NCBI GenBank assembly: GCA_033819885.1
Contig: JAQYUZ010000024.1
Coordinates: 175,974 to 239,973 of the forward strand
DNA length: 64,000 nt
Reading direction: 5' to 3'
From: Microbotryomycetes sp. JL201
Taxonomy: Eukaryota; Basidiomycota; Microbotryomycetes
A program made the position numbers and the translations under genes. The notes under the pieces are model-generated. The model worked only from the letters and a program-made list of their open reading frames with translations. It was not told the origin of the DNA and searched no databases. How positions within the stretch are numbered: position 1 is the first letter of the stretch; every line of letters starts with the position of its first letter. Positions 9,109-64,000 of the stretch are shown here, in pieces.

Positions 9109-9826
9109 TCTTGTTGAGCACGTAAAGGATGTTAAAGACGTTAGAACCACCAGACAGAAAAGAATGGGATCCTCCGCGGGCCTGCAAGAGCGGTGCAGCA
9201 GGACTCAGGAGCTCGCCTGCCCTGCCTTAATCATCATTATGACCGAACTCGGGGTATTTCAGACCCGTTGCGATCATCTGAATCCCACTTGAAAGTGACA
9301 AGCTCTGGTCTTGTAGATGTAAGCCTTCGGTAGACATCCGCAGCGACCACAATTCTTCGGTCTCGTGAGAGCATACGAAACGAACTGAGAATGCAACTCA
9401 CCTGCAGCGACCAATCTTCTTCAGTCTCGTGAGAGAATACAAACGAACTCAAGGAAAGAAAGAGTGTTTGCTGCCCCAAAATCTATCAAATAGTGCAAAC
9501 TCCCGAGTGTATCCAGGAAGCGTTATCTGAGGATAACACTATTCTGAACAAAACTCCGTGCCGAGGAATGGACTTCCTCGGAGCACTCCTATGAATAATT
9601 CAACGACTGATCGCGGCTTCAATGCGCATGACCAAGTCCGACCTTAGCCACCGCCACCGCCGCCTAAGTCATGCTGACAATACTTGGCAAGTTTCTTCCA
9701 GGTTTCGTGTGCGAAACACTCTCAAATAGCGTTATGCGAATGCGTAGGACGACCGTCTTCAGCTGTGGCAGCCACAATTTCGTCCAACCACGTCACAATA
9801 TAAACACTACAAAAAGTAGCAAGGCT
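9109..9826. other. Intergenic region between the two unknown paralogues
   Basis: About 720 nt between paralogues A and B. It contains an imperfect direct repeat of about 50 nt (listed separately) and a short open frame (9237-9479, minus) that is built from that repeat and has no recognisable domain. I see no convincing gene here. Confidence 0.55.
9340..9454. repeat. Imperfect direct repeat, two copies of about 50 nt
   Basis: Copy 1 is about 9340-9389 and copy 2 about 9404-9454. Each begins GCAGCGACCA, then has TTCTTCGGTCTCGTGAGAG or a close variant, and ends with ACGAACT. A spacer of about 14 nt separates them. They lie upstream of paralogue A on its coding strand, so they could be duplicated promoter sequence. 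That role is inference. Confidence 0.7.
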
Positions 9827-11335: not shown

Positions 11336-13022
11336 TCAGTTGCCCATTCTGGCGCCACTTTGCGAAGTGCCTGTTTGAAACCATTTCCTTGCAAACTCGT
11401 TATCGCTGTTGGATCCCTTTTTCCACAACTTGAACGCCTGCTCCTTGTCATACTGAGTGCACGAATGGTGAGTTGAGCTCACAAAACCAACGAGGTACGC
11501 ACATTGAACCACATGACTGCCGAGGCGCAAACACGTGTTATTTTCGGCGAGAACCGTTCAGTGAGCACGACTCACCACCAACAAAATTTGGCATTTGCTT
11601 GGTGACCTCTGAGGAAGTCATCTCGTCCATCCAGTCAAACTTTTCTGAAATGGGGGCTTCCCACCAAATGCCAGTCTCGCCGATGCAGAATTTGATCTTG
11701 CCTGATTGACAGTACTTGTCGTAGAACGGTTTGACATGATCAATAAAACGCTCTTGTTTCGATCGAGGGTAATAGTCAATGCTGTGACGTAACAAGGTGA
11801 GTCTCAGAGAGCGGCAGGGACGCAAAGAGCTCACCCGATCACGTGAACGCTGTCCAGGTTGTCTGGAAAGTATCTCACATAGTCGTCCAGGCTTGCCGCG
11901 ACATTGGGACAATACTGCAATACATAATCAGCATCCTTGACTGTGTGACATTATCCTAGTGATGCAGAAGCTCACAAACATGCGTATCTTTGAATTGTGC
12001 TTTACGGCTTCATACAGCGTTGCCCACGCCTCTTTAAACTCGGCCGGACCGCCGGAGTACGTGCCGTCCGTTTGGTACCAATTAACCTCGTGCGCGAATC
12101 GTAGCCACACCTCGACGCCGGCGTCAGTAAACCTTTTCATGACTTTTGCGATCGCCTTTGCTTGATAGTTGTCTTTGCGCGTCAGACCGTTCCAGCTGTG
12201 AGCAACGCTCAGTCAAGTCTAGTTTTTCGCGACCCACGGCAACCTACTTCTTGCTATTCGGCATCACCGCCGCTTGGAAAATGGCGCCACTTTTGACGAC
12301 ATCATCAAAGACCGGTCCTGACATTTGCCCGCCGTCCCATTCGCCAGATTCAGGCAATTGGGCGTACCAACCATGAAAGCTGAATTTGACGCCTAATGCG
12401 TCGTTGACCTCGCACAGTGTCTGGTCTTGGTAGTCTGGCAACAAGCCTATGCCAACGCCGTTCTTTGAGAGACCGGGAAACGTGTTCATGAAGCCTCCGT
12501 CGACATTGCTTGTGACAGATGGCGATTCAGGCTTAGCTGTCTTTGTCGATGAGATTACCGGTAAGGCTGTAGATGAGGCTGTCTCGGCAGTCTGCGTCCA
12601 GAGTTCGTCGGAATCTCCGAGCTCATCGACTCTTGAAGTCGAACCGACGGGCTTGGCATCCACTGGCGAGCTCTTTGCTATCGACGGATATTTCGATGTC
12701 TGTTGTGTAGCGTATCTGTAGAGTGAATAGCATCCGATGGCCAAGAGACAGCAGATCAACGCGATCCCAACGATGAGAATCGCCTTGTCTCGATTCGAGG
12801 ACTCGTAGAGCGTTCGCCGGCTTCTTCTCGGTCTTGGTACGTGCTCGAGTTGATCTTCGTCAGAAGCGTCCTGAATATGAACACGGGTCAGCACATCGTC
12901 TACGTATCTCGAGCTGATCTCACTTGGTTGTCCCGATACCGCTCAGCCGTATGGTATTCTTCATCACTGCTGTCCAAGGCTGCGTATATTTTACTCCCTC
13001 GTCGTGGCTTGCGGGCGCTCAT
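11336..13022 (-). CDS. Membrane-anchored GH26-like glycoside hydrolase, copy 1
   Basis: Seven exons: 12924-13022, 12248-12870, 11976-12195, 11835-11914, 11576-11781, 11503-11516, 11336-11452; 452 aa. An N-terminal Arg-rich cytosolic segment leads into one hydrophobic helix (about residues 63-84, AILIVGIALICCLLAIG), a Ser/Thr linker, then the catalytic domain from FPGLSKNGVGIG. This is type II membrane topology with the enzyme outside. VWLRFAHEVNWY supplies a GH26-style H-E-x-N acid/base (Glu277), and FCIGETG a strand-end nucleophile candidate (Glu376). GH26 enzymes usually cut beta-mannan; the substrate here is inference. Exon 6 is only 14 nt and is conserved in copy 2. Copy 2 lies directly upstream on the same strand. 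Confidence 0.78.
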
Positions 13023-13177
13023 GGTGATATATGGTCAAGAAAGATTGCAGCCCGGGTCGGAAGCCAGGACAATATCTTGGCGAAAAGAGCTCCTCGAGGA
13101 TTGCCGAGCTCGGCGTGCATTGTGGAAATCACCCTGATAGTTACACCAACAAGTCATACGCTTCCAATGACATGACT

Positions 13178-14924
13178 TCAGGCTTGACCGAAACTCGCTC
13201 CGCTTTGCGAAGTGCCGTCGTGAAACCATTTTTTGGCAAATTCGTTGTCGCTGTTCGAGCCCTTCTTCCATAACTTGTAGGCTCGCTCTTTGTCATACTG
13301 TAGTCAATCAAGTCAGAAGGGACATCTCAAAAGAGCAGCCTAGACCATACATTAAACCATGCAGCTTCAAGTTTGGCCAGCAATCTTGTCACCCTTTTAC
13401 GTGCCGCGTGTATGAGTTTTGACTCACTGCCAACATAATGGGGCATAGCCTTTGCAGTCTCTTCCGATGTCATCTGGTCCATCCATGCGAATTTGTCTTC
13501 GATCGTCTCTGGAGCCCAGTCTGTGCCAGTCTCGCCCATGGCAAACTTGATCTTGCCGTCAGAGCAATACTTGTCGTACAGCGGCCTATGTCAATGGTCA
13601 GTGCAGAACATGAGGCGTTGGTAACGGACGTACTTGACTCTTTCTAAGAACGAGTCGGTTTTTGATCGCGGATAAAAGTCTGCGGGAATCGACAAGTCAG
13701 AGCGGAGAATCAACGTAAAGTTTTGTTTGAAGCGGACCGATTCTACAGGGACGCGTTAGCAGAGCGCACGTAAGCCCCACGATTGATGACACACCCGAGA
13801 TAATGAACTGTGGAGTGGTCTTCGGGGAAATATCTGTCATAATCCGCCATGCTTCCGGCAACATTCGGAGTGAACTGCGATCATGATGTCAGCAGTTGGA
13901 CTTTGAACTGCAGTGGAGGCACAGACTGACAAACATTCTGATCTTTGGGTTATCCTTGACGGCTGCAGCTACTGTTGCCCACGCCTCTTTGAACTCGGCT
14001 GGACCGCCCGAATACGTGCCATCCGTCTGATACCAGTTGACTTCGTGCGCGAACCTCAGCCAAACATCTACGCCGGCATCAGTAAACTTTTTCATGACTT
14101 TGGCGATTGCCTTTGCTTGATAATCGTCTTTGCGTGTTAGGCCGTTCCAGCTGTAGGGTCTTGTCAGCGTCTGGGATCTCTAGCAGGTAAGCAGAATGCA
14201 TGCACTTTTTGCTGTTGGGCATCACTGCGGGCTGGAAGATGGCGCCGCTCTCGACGACGTCTTTAAACACGCTGCCCATCATCTGCGCACCGTCCCATTC
14301 TCCCGACTCGGGCAATTGAGCGTACCAGCCCATGAAACTGAATTTGACGTCCAAGCCTTTGTTCAAATCGGCCATGGTTTGATCTTGGTAGTCCGGTAGC
14401 ATTCCGATGCCGATGCCATTCTTGGACAAGCCTGGGAACGTCGGAGATGGCTTGTCACTCTTATAGTTTCCGCCGTCGCTACTGTGGGTGCCGTTGACGC
14501 TGATACCGGATGTCTGGTTTGACGTTTTTGACTGGGTGGCGGACGAGTCCGCTCCTTCAGACGATTTTCGAGCTGCTGTCGTCGTGTCATCATCACTCGT
14601 GACTCTTGTGGTGATACCAAGTGCATCCGACGCGTCTACGTCTGGCATGATGTTTGAAGGCGGCGCTGGCCCGGGGCCAGTGTCTTCGGTGGCATAGCGC
14701 CACAGCGAGTAGATGCCGATGACGAGCAGCCCGACAATGAGTGCCGTCCCAATGATCAGTATCGCCTTGTCCCTGCCAGTCAAGGGTGGCCTTGATGTTC
14801 GCCGTCTCTGCCGAGTCTGCTGAATCTCGTCTTCGTCTCGTCCTCGCCAGCGTGCCAGCTCGTCATCTTGGTCATCTTCGCTGTCAATCGCTCTGTACTT
14901 TTGTCTGCGGTTGCGAGGTGCCAT
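13178..14924 (-). CDS. Membrane-anchored GH26-like glycoside hydrolase, copy 2
   Basis: Exons 14206-14924, 13931-14150, 13795-13874, 13738-13742, 13634-13679, 13428-13585, 13351-13364, 13178-13297; 453 aa. The layout matches copy 1: charged N-terminus, one membrane helix (AILIIGTALIVGLLVIG), Ser/Thr linker, then the catalytic domain with WLRFAHEVNWY and AMGETGTDW. Exons of 220, 80 and 14 nt have the same length in both copies. Copy 2 carries two extra introns that cut what is one exon in copy 1. One leaves a 5-nt exon (AATCG) that restores the residues seen at the same place in copy 1. A simpler model uses a single 115-nt intron from donor 13792, but it loses one conserved residue. The start ATG at 14924 is supported by alignment with copy 1. 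Confidence 0.77.
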
Positions 14925-27249: not shown

Positions 27250-30200
27250 TCATTCCTGGAATGGGTCAAGCTCGAGCAAGCGATCTTTAAGATCAGCGTT
27301 TTGCTGTCGCAGGCGCTCGACTTCAGCTTGCAATTTGGTCCAGTCAGGGTTAATAGGGCTTGATCCCGCCACCTCTCCGTTGACGTGGACGACTGCCTCC
27401 GTGGCCGCTCGGTTCGATTGATCGAGCTTACTTTCAAGAGCCCTGTGCCCGCGATCAGAACTCAACAAAGTATACAACGGCGATGATCACGTCGAGGCCC
27501 ACCTGATCTTTTGCTCGTACTCGAGCAGCTTGGCTTCCGCCGTCTCGCGAAGCAGCTCCGACTTTTTCCACTCGCGAGCGAGCTGATCCATCTGCCTCCT
27601 TTGCTCAGCAAAGTTGACAAGGTCCTCGTCACTGAGGGCGTCAAACCCATCGTCAGGTAAATGTTGACAAAGCATCAATATGCAACGAACCAGATTGCCA
27701 GCGTTTTCGTAAGTGCTTCGATCCTGCTCCGAGCCAAACACACAATGTCAGGACACATCGTAACATCCCCAAATGCAAGAGAACACGAGCCTGGCTTCAT
27801 AATCTGCAATCTTGTCAAGTTTCTCCTTGTCCATTTGCACCTGATTCTGCAAGTCGAAGAATCTGCAGCCAGCAGAAGAAAAAGAAGACGTGAGTCACTT
27901 GCAATCCTTCAACAAGCCCAAATTTGCTCACGCCGCTCCTTGTTCCTCCAAATCTTTGCAAGCCTTCTTTTCCCTCTCCCTCGCTTCGTCAACCAACGTG
28001 TTCAATTCTTTCCTTTCTTGTTCCCACTTGATTCTCGTGTCTCGCAAGTTCTTCAGCCTCTCTTTCAAGTCGTCAATGTGTGCTGTCCAATTGGCCTTTG
28101 TCGCACCCGTCTCTGATCGGATCTGGTCAAGCGAGGCTTTGGTTTGTTTGAGCTGAGCTCGCAATGTCCGAATTGTCCGGTACTGTCGATATGAGAAGAT
28201 GTCAGCGCTTTGTCTGATCGGAAAGGCCAAGCTCGGCGCTCAGAAACAAATACTCACAAGGACCTGCCTCTCTGCCTCTGCTCCACTCTCCAAAACTTTT
28301 TCACGGTGCAGAGTACCCATGTGCGCAATGTGCAATTGCTTCAAATAAGTCTGAAATGCCACTTCACCTTGGAGCAAGATGATTTCCGTTTCGAGCTTGT
28401 GTATCTGAGAGGCCGTGACTCCTACAATGCTGCCGTGCAACCCTTGCAGCAGCAGTGACGATGAAGGTCCGCCCGCGACGTTTGACACGGTCGTACCACT
28501 AGCAGCTCCTGACGTTGCGCTTGTCGCCTGAGTCGCTTTCGAGTTTGATCGTGACAAGGTAGGTTCGGCGCCGCTTGACGGCATGGTCGCCGAATGCGTT
28601 CCCAAAGGTGACATTGGCGAGTTAATGATGCTCGAAGCTCTGCTGTGAGCGCGTGAGGTAGGCGCGGACGACTCTGCGCTGGCCAGCGAGCCCTGGAAAG
28701 CAATTGGATCGAAATCCGATTGACGAAGTCGCGAGACTGATCGACCGGGGGATTGAGATGGCGAATTGGCGGAATGAAACGCCTGAAAGTTTGTGAAATG
28801 CGTGTTGGTTGGCAGAGCAGGCGTCGGAGACCTGGAGCGGGACGCTGCAGCGATTGACGCGTTGCGCGCTGTAGGTATTTGAGGTTCGGTCTGTCGTGCA
28901 CTGGTGTCGCGTGGCCTCGAGTGCGCGCTGCTCTTGCGACTGGTGCTCAATCGGAGCAGATCATGCAAGTCTTGGGCGAATGGCGTTCGTCTTTGCCGGG
29001 CGCGGGATCGCCCAGCCGCCAGAAACAATTCACCCTCTTGTGCGAGACCGTTCGGATCAACATCATCTAGATCTTGGAAATCGTCGTCATCATCGTCAAT
29101 GACGAGCTCCTGGATCAGATTACGGTGACATTCGGCCATAACGTCTGCAGTCTCTAGTTTTCGCCACCGCGTCGTATCAGTTAGCTCGCTGTTCACGTCG
29201 CCTACGAGGAGAGCCGGATGAAGGGCGTGTCTCCGGATAAGAGGCTGGCGACACGTTGTCAACAGGTTTGTGCTTTAATCTGACTTGTCCGGATGGCGCT
29301 CACGTTACTCCGCTCTCTCACGACGCCGGTCGTGAGAGACGACCCTGCCGGCGCTTTCCATTCTTTGCTTCTCAGGTACGCATTGGCATCCTTGACAAAC
29401 GCAATGAAATTGCACGGGTAGATCCCGTACAGAATCGTGAACAAGTCGAGCGGGTTCGGCGGCGGTCCGTCGAATGCTTCATCGTTGATTTTATCTATCA
29501 CAACCGCTTGTCTGCCATCAGCAAAGTACAGCAGTGGATCAAACACTTATTGCGCACCCGTTGGCTCGATACTCTCTTCGACCCCGGGCATGTCCCAGCT
29601 GACGGCTCGCGCATAGACGGCCATGATGCCGAACAGGTGATCGCCAATAATGACGGGCAGCGCGACGAGAAAGATCTGCAGGCACTTGATACCGAGCGCG
29701 ATTGATGCCGGCGACGGCGTCGTTAGACAGAAATTGATCAAGTTGGACAAGAGCGGCGTTTGAAGTACGTGATATGCTTTGCCAGAGTGGCGTGCGAGCA
29801 CGTTGAGCAAAAGTGACAGGAAAGGCATTCGCGCAGGGTTTGATGGGTCTATGAACGGGGCGCAGCGTTCAAAGTACGCCTGTGGAGTGCGATATGAGAT
29901 TGACGCAAGAGATGCATCTCGCGCCGCGTGGCCGCTCACCTGCATGCAATTCTCTGCCCACATGGCGACGCACTCGCTGATATTCCGCAAACCGTACCAC
30001 TCATCTCCGCCTCGCATGCGCGCGATGCCTCGTTTTTCAAACTCGCTTTTGACGACGTCGTTGAACGCGGGCAGTTCGTACGGTCCGCGCTCTGCCTGTT
30101 TGAGCGTCTGTGACATGCCCCAGGTGACGATTCTCATTGTCGCTGCCAGAGCCTCCCTCGAGACAGTTAGAGGTTTCTTTTGTGACGGGTCGAGCGTTGA

Positions 30201-30969
30201 GGTGGCTGCCGAATGTTTCTGATGAGCAGTCTTTGCGTCTCGACGTCGACCTCTGCGTTCGGAGCGGTCATCTGTACCAGTAGAGTCGTCCTTTGCTGTG
30301 CCGAGCAAGACACGCTTGAGCACGAGGTCCCACCAGATGTTGCCGACGTCTTCGCGCGTGACGACTGCGCTGTCGTCGTCGTCCTTGAGCGTGGCACTCA
30401 GGCGGTCGAGCAGTGACACGAACGCAGATACACGCGCGATCGCCGCTGCGTCGCCCTCGAGGCCCGGTCTAGGTTCGATCGCAGCCCACAAGTCTGCCAG
30501 CGAGTCGCGCCACCTGGTTCGTTCGCGGTCGCGCTCGTATACAGTGGACGAAGCCGGTCCTGCCTCATCCGCGCCGGCGTAGTTGGACGCAAACGACGAC
30601 AGGTACGACTCGATCATCTGCACAAGTGGCTCAGGCAGAGCAAAGTTGGGGAACGCTGATGCGGTTGATGCCGCCGGCGTTGATGTATTGACGTGCTCGT
30701 CTGGCGACGGCTGCTGTTGAGCCTTTGACGGCTGCTTGCCCGTCGACTGCAGGAAGTGGGCATGTACCTGCCGCAGCACTTCCTTGCCCGACCTGTCGAG
30801 CCGAGACCGTGTGTGTCAGCCAGTCTGGTCGCTCGTTTGGTTCTGCGCAGCCCATGTGGAGCCGGCGCGCGGCCTCGTCTGCACCGCTGCCAGAGAACTA
30901 TCGGACACTCGTGCGCCACACACAGCGCAATCGATAGACGTCAAAAGGCCGCACAACTTACGCCGACAT
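27250..30969 (-). CDS. TSC1: Hamartin (TSC1), regulator of TORC1
   Basis: Exons 30962-30969, 29558-30792, 29304-29494, 28258-29244, 27932-28182, 27787-27862, 27503-27723, 27250-27442; 1053 aa in phase. The N-terminal half is a helical repeat with typical hamartin segments: TPLLSNLINFCLTT, LFGIMAVYARAVSWD, NPLDLFTILYGIYPCNF and LIRRHALHPALL. A long acidic, Ser-rich linker follows. The C-terminal third is coiled coil (TLRAQLKQTKASLDQIR, LVDEAREREKKACKDLEE, KLQAEVERLRQQNADLKDRL). Hamartin pairs with tuberin (TSC2) as the GAP complex for Rheb and so restrains TORC1. The first exon is only 8 nt (ATG plus five bases) before a 169-nt intron. It was chosen for phase and its GTAAGT donor, so the start is the weakest point. 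Confidence 0.86.
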
Positions 30970-31833
30970 GACCTGTGCCGGGCGTGGGCCGAGGATTGAG
31001 AACAACTACGGAGACGCTCGAGATTATCTTCCACACATTCTTGTACAGTCCTTGCCATTTTCGTACTGGCTTCAATGTGTTTTGATCATATTAGATAGGA
31101 TCCATCGCTCGGAAGCGCTCTGCTTTTCGACATGGGCTTGAGCACGTGACGCCCGAGGCGTGACCTTGCAGGGTGTTTCAACTCGGACAACAATGATTCA
31201 ACGTGCGATCAAGGCAAAGGATCACTCACTCATGTTTGCCGAAGTATGCAAAGCACAGACGCGGCTAGGAGGTGTGATTGCAAAAAGCTGCTTGTGGAGG
31301 CTGATCTGCTCAGACGCCGCGAATCGCAAGCTTGCGTCACAGCAAAACACAATGCCGCGTTTACATAGGCGCTCATGAATCCAGTCAGCGGGGAGGCGGA
31401 CGCCATGTCGATATTGCAAATGGCCGCGCACGATCAAACCTTCGCGGCTGCTGCGGACGAACAAAGGTCTGCGATCTGTGCGCCAATCGCGGACGCGCGC
31501 GCGCCTGAGTCTGTGCACGACCGTTGCAAGAAAAACAAAACCGACCGTTGGCGGGAAACGCGACTGTGCGAGGCATGGCCGCTCGAGAAAACTTCTTGCC
31601 TCATGCCATCGAGATTCCCGAAGCTCAAATCGACCTGTAGCGCATGCTGAACCAAAGTCGACGAATCTCGAACAGCGCACTCGCTGAGTGGGATCATGGA
31701 AGCTTCTAGTAATGCATTGCTTGATGAGTTTTCCTGCGAGCGGGTCCAGTCAGACCGAGAGGCACGCCCACGCTCGGTCACCGCGCGCGTGCAGTATGCG
31801 CACATGCGCGATCACTAAGAGTGCACGACCCAC
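30970..31833. other. Gene-poor stretch upstream of the palindrome
   Basis: About 860 nt with several overlapping open frames on both strands of 70-150 codons. None has a recognisable domain or a convincing intron pattern. A CACGTGA motif lies at 31143-31149. I call no gene. Confidence 0.5.
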
Positions 31834-32396
31834 TTGGGTCGCCGCCGTCGTTTCATTGACCGTTCTGGCACTCGCTAGATGCAAACTGTTGAGGTTGGTA
31901 TGAAGCGAACTGTCTGCTCGATTGATCGCGACTGGCCATCTACGGTCAGATTCGCCCTTGACGAGAGGGCTGGCTGACTGCACTCTACAAGTCTCGACAA
32001 CGACGAGGCCGAGCCGATATATCGATCGAACTGCCTTTGTCAGCGTGCATCCGCTGCAAAGCTGTCCTCACTTTCGCCGTTATTGCGCAAGGCCACATTC
32101 TGTTTCGGCAGCGGGTCTGATTTGTTTGCCGGAAAGAAGGATCAACAGCCATCTCAAAGGTCTGCCGTGCTCAAACACTCTCGCCGACAGCGAGAGAGCG
32201 TGAGATCTCATCGGGTACTCAAGAAAAAGAGCAAATCTAGGTGTCTATGTCCATGCATTTAAGCGTGCTGACTCTTTTAAACCAGGGCACCTTGTGTGAA
32301 TTATCCAAACGGCAACAGATGAGGTTTTCAATGTGGGGAGGCGGGTACGGCCAACTCATCAGACTCTGGTTCGCCTTCAGGATCGATTAGGTCTGT
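31834..32396. repeat. Left arm of a 1.2-kb imperfect palindrome
   Basis: This arm (about 563 nt) is the diverged reverse complement of 32437-33018. Good anchors are the segment around GTCGTTTCATTGACCGTTCT (outer end), CTACAAGTCTCGACAACGA (middle), GCAACAGATGAGGTT and GGTCTGT (inner end). The centre between the arms is only 40 nt (32397-32436). Base changes and small indels are spread along both arms, so the duplication is not recent. Confidence 0.85.
31879..32203 (+). pseudogene. Broken left-arm copy of the palindrome ORF
   Basis: Starts MQTVEVGMKRTVCSIDRDWP, closely matching the right-arm ORF in the opposite strand. It runs into an in-frame TGA at 31975-31977, created by a small insertion. 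After the stop, the same frame again matches the right-arm protein (LHSTSLDNDE). It therefore looks like a decayed copy, unless splicing skips the stop. No family is recognised. Confidence 0.5.
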
Positions 32397-32436
32397 TCAC
32401 TTGCTCAGTCGCCTGTGCTTTGGCCGACGAGTTGGG

Positions 32437-33018
32437 ACAGACCCGATCGATCTTGCAGACGAACCTACGTACGATGAGTCTGCCGTCCCTGCCTCCCCAT
32501 ATGGAGAACCTCATCTGTTGCCGGCCGCGGTGAGCAAATTCACTCAGGGTGCCCTGGTTCGAAAGAGTCAGCACGCTCGGATGCATCGAGAGAGAGAGAG
32601 AGACAGTCGCAAACTTACTCCTGTTCTTGGGTACAAGATGATGTTTCCCGTACTCTCGCTGTCGGCGAGATCGATTGGGGACGGCAGAGACCTGAGACTG
32701 GTGCCGATTAAATTTTTGTGGGACAACAAATCTGACCCGCTGCCGGAAGAGGACATGGGCCTGCGCGAGGGTTGCGAAATCGAGCGCAGCTCTGCGCGGG
32801 ATGATACAGGCTGAAGCGGGAGTGCGATGGAAATTTCCGGCTCGGTCTCGTCGTTGTCGAGACTTGTAGAGTGCAGCCGGCCATTCCTCTCGTAAACGAC
32901 GAATCTGACCGTAAACGGCCAGTCGCGATCAATTGAGCAGGGGATGCGCTCCCTTCCAACTTCAACAGTTTGCATCTAGCGAGTGCCAGAACGGTCAATG
33001 AAACGACGGCAACCCAGG
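32437..33018. repeat. Right arm of the 1.2-kb imperfect palindrome
   Basis: Reverse-complement partner of 31834-32396. It includes a short (GA)n tract near 32588-32604 that is not matched in the left arm. The arms carry facing copies of the same small ORF, so the two copies are convergent. Confidence 0.85.
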
Positions 33019-33109
33019 ATTCGCTGGCACTGACCATGCTGTGCAGCTCCGTTCCTTTTGAAATCTCGATCTTGCACTTTTGAACGTACCCCGTACCCCG
33101 AATCAACAC
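32568..33109 (-). CDS. Hypothetical ORF in the right palindrome arm
   Basis: The minus frame from an ATG at 32975 encodes about 135 residues beginning MQTVEVGRERIPCSIDRDWP and including FTVRFVVYERNGRLHSTSLD. A candidate upstream exon (VQKCKIEISKGTELHSM) could be joined through an intron with GTCAGT donor and CTAG acceptor ending just before the ATG. The 3' end is uncertain because further exons may follow toward the palindrome centre. No family is recognised. The paired, partly conserved frame in the other arm suggests it was once coding. Confidence 0.35.
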
Positions 33110-33774
33110 TTAGATTTTGCTGAGGGCTGCCTGCGAGCGTGATACAAGTCAGTCGCGCAGGCAGCTACGGGTTTCAAGGCGACTCTGAGTCTGACAGCTC
33201 CATGAGCGAGGCAGGACTCGAATCAGATTCAGACGACAGCGAGCGTGAGCGGAACCGTCAGCGTCAGGGACGAATGCTGCGACGCCAAAAAATTTGCGCT
33301 GGAAAGAATCAGCCGTCAGCATACTTGCACTCATAAGAGACGTCGAAAAAGCTGGCGACGACGATCACATTCTGTTGGGATTCCGACATGCCGCCTCAGA
33401 AGTGCCGAGCTCGAGAATCTGCGCGAGACGCTCTTTAAAGAGGAAAGGGCGTGGCGCATACTGCACGAGCCAAAGCTCAAACTCGTGCCACAGTGTTGAC
33501 CGCACCAATCAGCAAAGGTATAGCAAACTTTTGTATCAATTAGCTGGAGCCCGCGGTGAGTTGCCCCTTTCTGCTGTTCAGCCCTTTATACATTCAAGGC
33601 GGCTTTAGATCACGTGACGAGAGCAGACAATCCTGCTGGATCAGCTCTGTTGACAAGTCTGACGTAGAGACGGTACCACAAGTCTTCCGCGTAAGGAAGT
33701 AGTAGAACTGTGCTCGCATTGTATCATCATGCTGTTTCTCTGCCGCGCGCTTCTCACTTCTGCCGCACCGCACG
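33019..33774. other. Intergenic region before the SUMO-like gene
   Basis: About 750 nt. A plus-strand Ser/Asp/Glu-rich frame (33139-33336) and its neighbours show no recognisable domain. A perfect TCACGTGA octamer at 33610-33617 lies 158 nt before the next start codon and could be a bHLH (Cbf1-type) site. Confidence 0.45.
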
Positions 33775-34533
33775 ATGGACCCGTTCGACGCGATCCAGTT
33801 GATCCGGCGTCCGACACCTCCTCCTCGTGAGCCTCCAAAACGCGAGTTTCATGCACCGTTGCGCACGTCCTCGGCTGCCGACTTGGAACAACCGCTCGAA
33901 CCCGAGCTTGATCCGACGAACCAGTTCAACCACTTGTCGTTCTTTGCCTCACCTGAACCTCTGTACATCATCCACATCCTACCTAGACCTCGACCACCTC
34001 CCTCGTCGTCGACGTCACCCGAGTCTGACGATGCAAACAGCATCAACGCAAACCGCTTGCTACCACTCAACGTCAAATTGAGACTCAAAACGCCTTTCGA
34101 AAAGGTCTTCTCGGCCTACACTTATAAAGTGAATTCGTCCACGACGACGATGACGACGACGACGACGACGACGGCTACGCCATCAGGCGATCAACAGTCG
34201 CAACGACAACGCCAAGAACCCTTGACGGCAGACATGCTCGAATTCAGTTTGAGAACGTTTCAGAACCCGGACGATGGTTTGCCATTACAAGGAAACGAAT
34301 GTCTTGGAGACTTTTTAGTGCAGGCAATAGACATTGTCTCGCCGGGAGGACAAAAAGCCGTGGCGGCAACGACGACCGGCAACGAGATGATGCTCCTCGT
34401 TTGGGTTTCGCTCAAAGAAGCCGATGCCAGAGAATACACGACAACGACGACGAAACCGCCGACGACAACAACGACAAAGAAGGATTCTCTCGTTGGAAAG
34501 CCGGTCAGAAACGGCAGATCCAGGAAAGGTTAA
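33775..34533 (+). CDS. Rad60-SLD / SUMO-like domain protein
   Basis: A single-exon gene of 252 aa, ATG at 33775. The N-terminal 90 residues are Pro-rich and acidic. From about residue 101, VKLRLKTPFEKVFSAYTYKV resembles the first two strands and helix of a ubiquitin-like fold of the Rad60-SLD/SUMO type. After a Thr-rich insert it continues LEFSLRTFQNPDDGLPLQGN and ECLGDFLV, the usual second half. The insert is coded by an ACG/ATG triplet run (about 34140-34173). The C-terminal tail is again Thr/Lys-rich with no di-glycine end, so it is unlikely to be a conjugated modifier. A role in SUMO-linked genome maintenance is a family-level guess. Confidence 0.6.
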   Translation: MDPFDAIQLIRRPTPPPREPPKREFHAPLRTSSAADLEQPLEPELDPTNQFNHLSFFASPEPLYIIHILPRPRPPPSSSTSPESDDANSINANRLLPLNVKLRLKTPFEKVFSAYTYKVNSSTTTMTTTTTTTATPSGDQQSQRQRQEPLTADMLEFSLRTFQNPDDGLPLQGNECLGDFLVQAIDIVSPGGQKAVAATTTGNEMMLLVWVSLKEADAREYTTTTTKPPTTTTTKKDSLVGKPVRNGRSRKG

Positions 34534-63864: not shown

Positions 63865-64000
63865 AGAGGTACGGCCGTTATTTTACTTAGCTGCGCGTGA
63901 CTCGATTCAGTCGGGAGCGTTCTATGCTCGAATGGATATACGCTTTCGTGCATCTTGAAATGCCAAATTTCTAGTCTCGTACCTGTATCTGATGAGAAAC
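63865..64000. other. Window end, possible continuation of the last gene
   Basis: The final 136 nt follow the proposed stop of the transcription factor. A GGTCAATGAAGAGGTACGG segment offers further GT donors, so more exons may lie beyond the window. Confidence 0.4.

Follow-up and report, generated by a model that had tools for sequence, protein, structure and literature searches.

A diverged 1.2-kb inverted duplication in a Microbotryomycetes genome that looks like an ageing intergenic relic

The instability of inverted repeats is lowered by divergence and by distance between the repeats, according to an excerpt of PMC3855049, which describes 320-bp inverted Alu pairs with 100% or 94% identity and a 12-bp spacer placed into yeast. 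Like these quasi-palindromes, the locus described here has imperfect inverted arms of hundreds of bases around a short centre, whereas its arms share 78% identity, its centre measures 40 nt, and it stands at its natural position. An excerpt of PMC8604942 reports that inverted-repeat arms are homogenised by template switching in yeast, with short spacers favoured, and mentions earlier reports of homogenised long inverted repeats. The Saccharomyces cerevisiae cases in that excerpt resemble our locus in that arms which differ elsewhere share patches of identity; they differ in having short arms and short spacers, whereas here the arms are long and the best patch lies at their far ends.

The locus was found in a stretch of 64,000 nucleotides from Microbotryomycetes sp. 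JL201 (the window), corresponding to positions 175974-239973 of contig C17 (JAQYUZ010000024.1) in an assembly of 17.15 Mb and 92 contigs; window position 64000 is the right end of the contig. A preliminary description had recognised an imperfect palindrome of about 1.2 kb with a 40-nt centre, and this structure is real. Its parts, in window positions, are as follows.

31844-32396, plus strand: left arm of the inverted duplication, 78% identity to the reverse complement of the right arm (repeat-finder pairs I1-I5)
31844-31892, plus strand: perfect run at the outer end of the left arm, 49 bp identical
31844-32016, plus strand: less diverged outer section of the left arm, 88% identity with 32838-33010
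32397-32436, no strand: centre between the arms, 40 nt
32437-33010, minus strand: right arm of the inverted duplication (repeat-finder pairs and refined alignment)
32838-33010, minus strand: less diverged outer section of the right arm (inverted repeat pair I1 and refined alignment)

Extent, setting and rarity of the inverted arms

Aligned as reverse complements in the refined alignment, the arms are identical at 431 of 552 bases (K2P 0.262). The 121 mismatches comprise 64 transitions and 57 transversions, and the alignment holds six gaps of 1, 3, 2, 10, 6 and 1 columns (23 columns), four of which are not multiples of three; blastn gives 74% identity over the whole arms. On the arm limits of the preliminary description, the global score of 279.5 far exceeds that of every one of 200 shuffles (mean -70.5, SD 8.2, maximum -44.5), placing the alignment well above those of shuffled sequence. 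The core of those limits held, whereas the outermost 10 bases on the left and 8 on the right lie beyond clear homology, and the flanks outside the arms gave a local score of 15, which 23 of 100 shuffles equalled. Adjacent inverted arms homologous beyond chance are what defines a diverged inverted duplication, or quasi-palindrome. Had sequencing or assembly produced the palindrome as a foldback artefact, its arms should be near-perfect, unlike those seen here.

The palindrome is intergenic, with one open reading frame on each side.

29547-30617, minus strand: TSC1-like ORF with a weak Hamartin/TSC1 match (17 bits against a cut-off of 25.9)
33775-34533, plus strand: right-hand neighbour ORF, without a confident family

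Several of the first ten window ORFs scanned match the Hid1, protein-O-mannosyltransferase, PDR-type ABC transporter, DEAD-box helicase and Ctf4 families, the DEAD-box helicase being eIF4A-like, as confirmed by a solved-structure search. Structured RNA families gave no Rfam match over the whole window at gathering scores or over 31500-33800 at E <= 1, and a tRNA scan run with the bacterial code found none. Other repeats in the window include a CGA/GAC-type run at 34127-34190 within the right-hand neighbour ORF, which also carries a threonine-rich stretch, and a 45-nt element at 9335-9443 in two copies, 82% alike, that start 64 bp apart. Direct repeats at 11349-14441 (three longer pairs of 72-82% and a 34-nt pair of 85%, spaced 1845-1958 bp) probably reflect two paralogous genes in tandem.

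DNA searches of the 17.15-Mb assembly, which scored the best candidates only, returned the two arms and no further copy of either. A blastn self-comparison (E <= 1e-5, low-complexity filter on, pairs spanning stretch borders missed) of the window and 20 sampled 10-kb stretches gave no other inverted pair. Four of the 20 stretches had been picked for other reasons (the window flank and the Argonaute, Dicer and RNase III loci), and one lacked any G or C and was taken as masked, so that about 254 of 264 kb were really examined. The palindrome being the sole inverted pair in this small and partly chosen sample, such features do not appear to be common here. The locus is named in no title or abstract opening that we found in the literature, where it might nevertheless have been published.

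Reading frames within the arms

The preliminary description saw in the arms the same unknown ORF twice, the copies facing each other, both starting MQTVEVG and lying on opposite strands (start positions 31879 on the plus and 32975 on the minus strand).

32568-32975, minus strand: MQTVEVG open frame of the right arm, 135 aa, probably not a gene
31879-31977, plus strand: matching MQTVEVG frame of the left arm, stopped in frame by TGA at 31975-31977

The two copies stand as reading frames, one open and one interrupted as had been noted, but are not supported as genes, for which codon-position bias and a Pfam match (up to E = 1) were both wanting. An inverted pair of protein-coding genes, with the right copy alive and the left a pseudogene, would account for this asymmetry and for the more A+T-rich, CpG-poor left arm, and yet we regard it as unlikely on the pattern of substitutions. 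Mismatches in the ORF part fall on codon positions one, two and three at 31/131, 36/132 and 28/129, respectively; over the whole arms they are spread near-evenly across codon positions in all frames, and the synonymous-biased divergence by which a gene pair might be recognised was not seen. In simulations that took the right arm as the start, split the change equally between the arms and ignored gaps, a third-position count as low as the observed 28 of 95 never occurred in 400 runs with both copies constrained. It occurred in 1% of 400 runs with an omega of 0.2 on the right and a neutral left arm, in 2.75% of 400 with a right omega of 0.4, and in 20% of 400 when both arms were neutral.

At -0.044, the codon score of the MQTVEVG ORF falls slightly short of the lowest among 8 reference exons (range -0.025 to 0.186) and sits among those of 11 spurious ORFs (9 lower and 2 higher; range -0.293 to 0.046), which speaks weakly against its being a gene. 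No relatives were found in bacterial/archaeal or viral contigs at E <= 1e-3, and within the same genome nothing but the other arm gives a real match at the protein level. A match on contig C78 (E = 0.93, 29%) was taken as chance.

Two opposite-strand frames of the right arm stay open over roughly two thirds of its length, which counts against a non-coding reading, and a plus-strand codon-usage signal of 0.17-0.22 near 32460 and 32700 might be read in favour of a gene pair; signals of similar size, however, appear opposite real exons. The plus-strand frame is likewise without codon-position bias, and the ATG-started part of it, 77 aa long, gave nothing in Pfam. Codon usage was set aside as a coding test because it is weak.

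Hairpin folding and the silencing machinery

Hairpin-derived small-RNA loci share the long-foldback geometry with the palindrome, which differs from them in showing no pairing-preserving substitutions. The plus strand is predicted to fold as one long hairpin of -787.6 kcal/mol (a bare value, with no shuffle comparison at that length), in agreement with the earlier proposal that a read-through transcript would fold back on itself, and the arms could still pair perfectly over runs of 49 and 30 bp. RNA silencing from the palindrome is possible in terms of the predicted fold and of the Argonaute and probable Dicer described below. If the palindrome were a natural hairpin (hpRNA) locus, transcription through both arms would give a long duplex for Dicer to cut, and Argonaute would use the resulting small RNAs. 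We consider this reading of the palindrome improbable, although the persisting duplex runs and the single predicted hairpin would suit it, since the substitutions do not follow pairing: 33 of the 64 transition differences would be G-U-compatible in a plus transcript and 31 in a minus transcript, an even split with no excess and no sign of selection for hairpin pairing. Nor does the locus have an Rfam match.

The genome offers part of the machinery that such a locus would need. An Argonaute Piwi domain lies in two exons at G000:C2:417186-418224, and Dicer_dimer matches over the cut-off at G000:C20:103872-104170 mark a probable Dicer-like gene. The domain picture of this gene is incomplete: RNase III fragments near the Dicer_dimer match score below the cut-off, the frames scanned on this contig hold no helicase domain, and the contig is not among the matches listed in a genome-wide RNase III search. 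The RNase III match on contig C24 may instead represent mL44, a mitochondrial ribosomal protein (scores below the cut-offs). The genome search gave no RdRP candidate, a weak negative, as control genomes gave no match either; if it holds, foldback transcripts could matter more, which would count in favour of a hairpin locus. Argonaute and a probable Dicer-like gene without a detected RdRP would be an unusual set if the RdRP negative is correct. Loss of RNAi in fungi affects Ustilaginomycotina species among others, as an excerpt of a review states (PMC7763443). What speaks for silencing from the palindrome is its foldback geometry together with one certain and one probable gene of the pathway. 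The more specific proposal that the palindrome is a retained hairpin locus supplying Argonaute with small RNAs in a genome with Dicer and Argonaute but no RdRP, with the outer 49-bp duplex as their conserved source, seems to us very unlikely.

Divergence of the arms and their origin

The two arms are unequal in composition. Where they differ between A/T and G/C, the A/T lies in the left arm at 59 positions and in the right at 35 (p = 0.017), and CG on the right faces TG/CA on the left 9 times, against 2 the other way. The left arm, being poorer in G+C and CpG, might thus have decayed faster than the right, a direction that composition weakly suggests. A two-piece match to the DNA methylase family, above the cut-off, lies at G000:C8:158447-159602, which makes CpG decay of the left arm possible.

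Divergence is also uneven along the arms, with 20 mismatches in the outer 172 aligned columns and 101 in the remaining 380. The longest identical run, of 49 bp, starts at the outer ends (p = 0.00055), and the low mismatch count of the outer 172 columns is also rarely matched when mismatches are permuted (p = 0.0001; 20,000 permutations for each), or with any 172-column stretch allowed (p = 0.0017; 3,000 permutations). Such significant clustering makes strictly uniform neutral decay a poor fit. What kept the outer 170 bp or so alike might have been a subsequent template switch or conversion between the arms, or else some constraint there. Because template switching is reported to prefer short spacers, its action would be expected mostly near the centre, and it would explain a patch at the outer ends poorly.

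Outer ends that are the best conserved part of a palindromic form could also point to a transposon of the foldback or MITE-like kind, now decayed, whose terminal inverted repeats are long. The 17.15-Mb assembly returned none of the dispersed copies that a mobile element would lead one to expect, and when the ends were shifted by as much as 12 bases, one exact 5-mer and three 4-mers appeared as candidate target-site duplications, about the level of chance (some 0.6 five-mers expected, by our own estimate). A decayed target-site duplication could have escaped notice, but a transposon origin appears very unlikely.

The palindrome probably represents a single old inverted duplication of non-coding intergenic DNA, in agreement with the old inverted duplication first proposed, which the 22% divergence of the arms supports. 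A segment of about 560-570 bp would have been copied once, inverted, beside itself, leaving the 40-nt centre; the simplest mechanism would be template switching by the polymerase, or foldback repair, in replication. Both arms would then have drifted as non-coding DNA, presumably under little or no selection, to their present divergence, and this drift would also have lowered the instability of the original palindrome. Judged from sequence features, the locus looks like an ageing relic, decaying largely neutrally, rather than a gene pair.

As the evidence stands, the palindrome is mostly ordinary. It provides an example, from a compact fungal genome, of a 1.2-kb palindrome persisting after the divergence of its arms. 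Should this fungus indeed lack RdRP, the locus might be a possible site at which to ask whether foldback alone feeds silencing.
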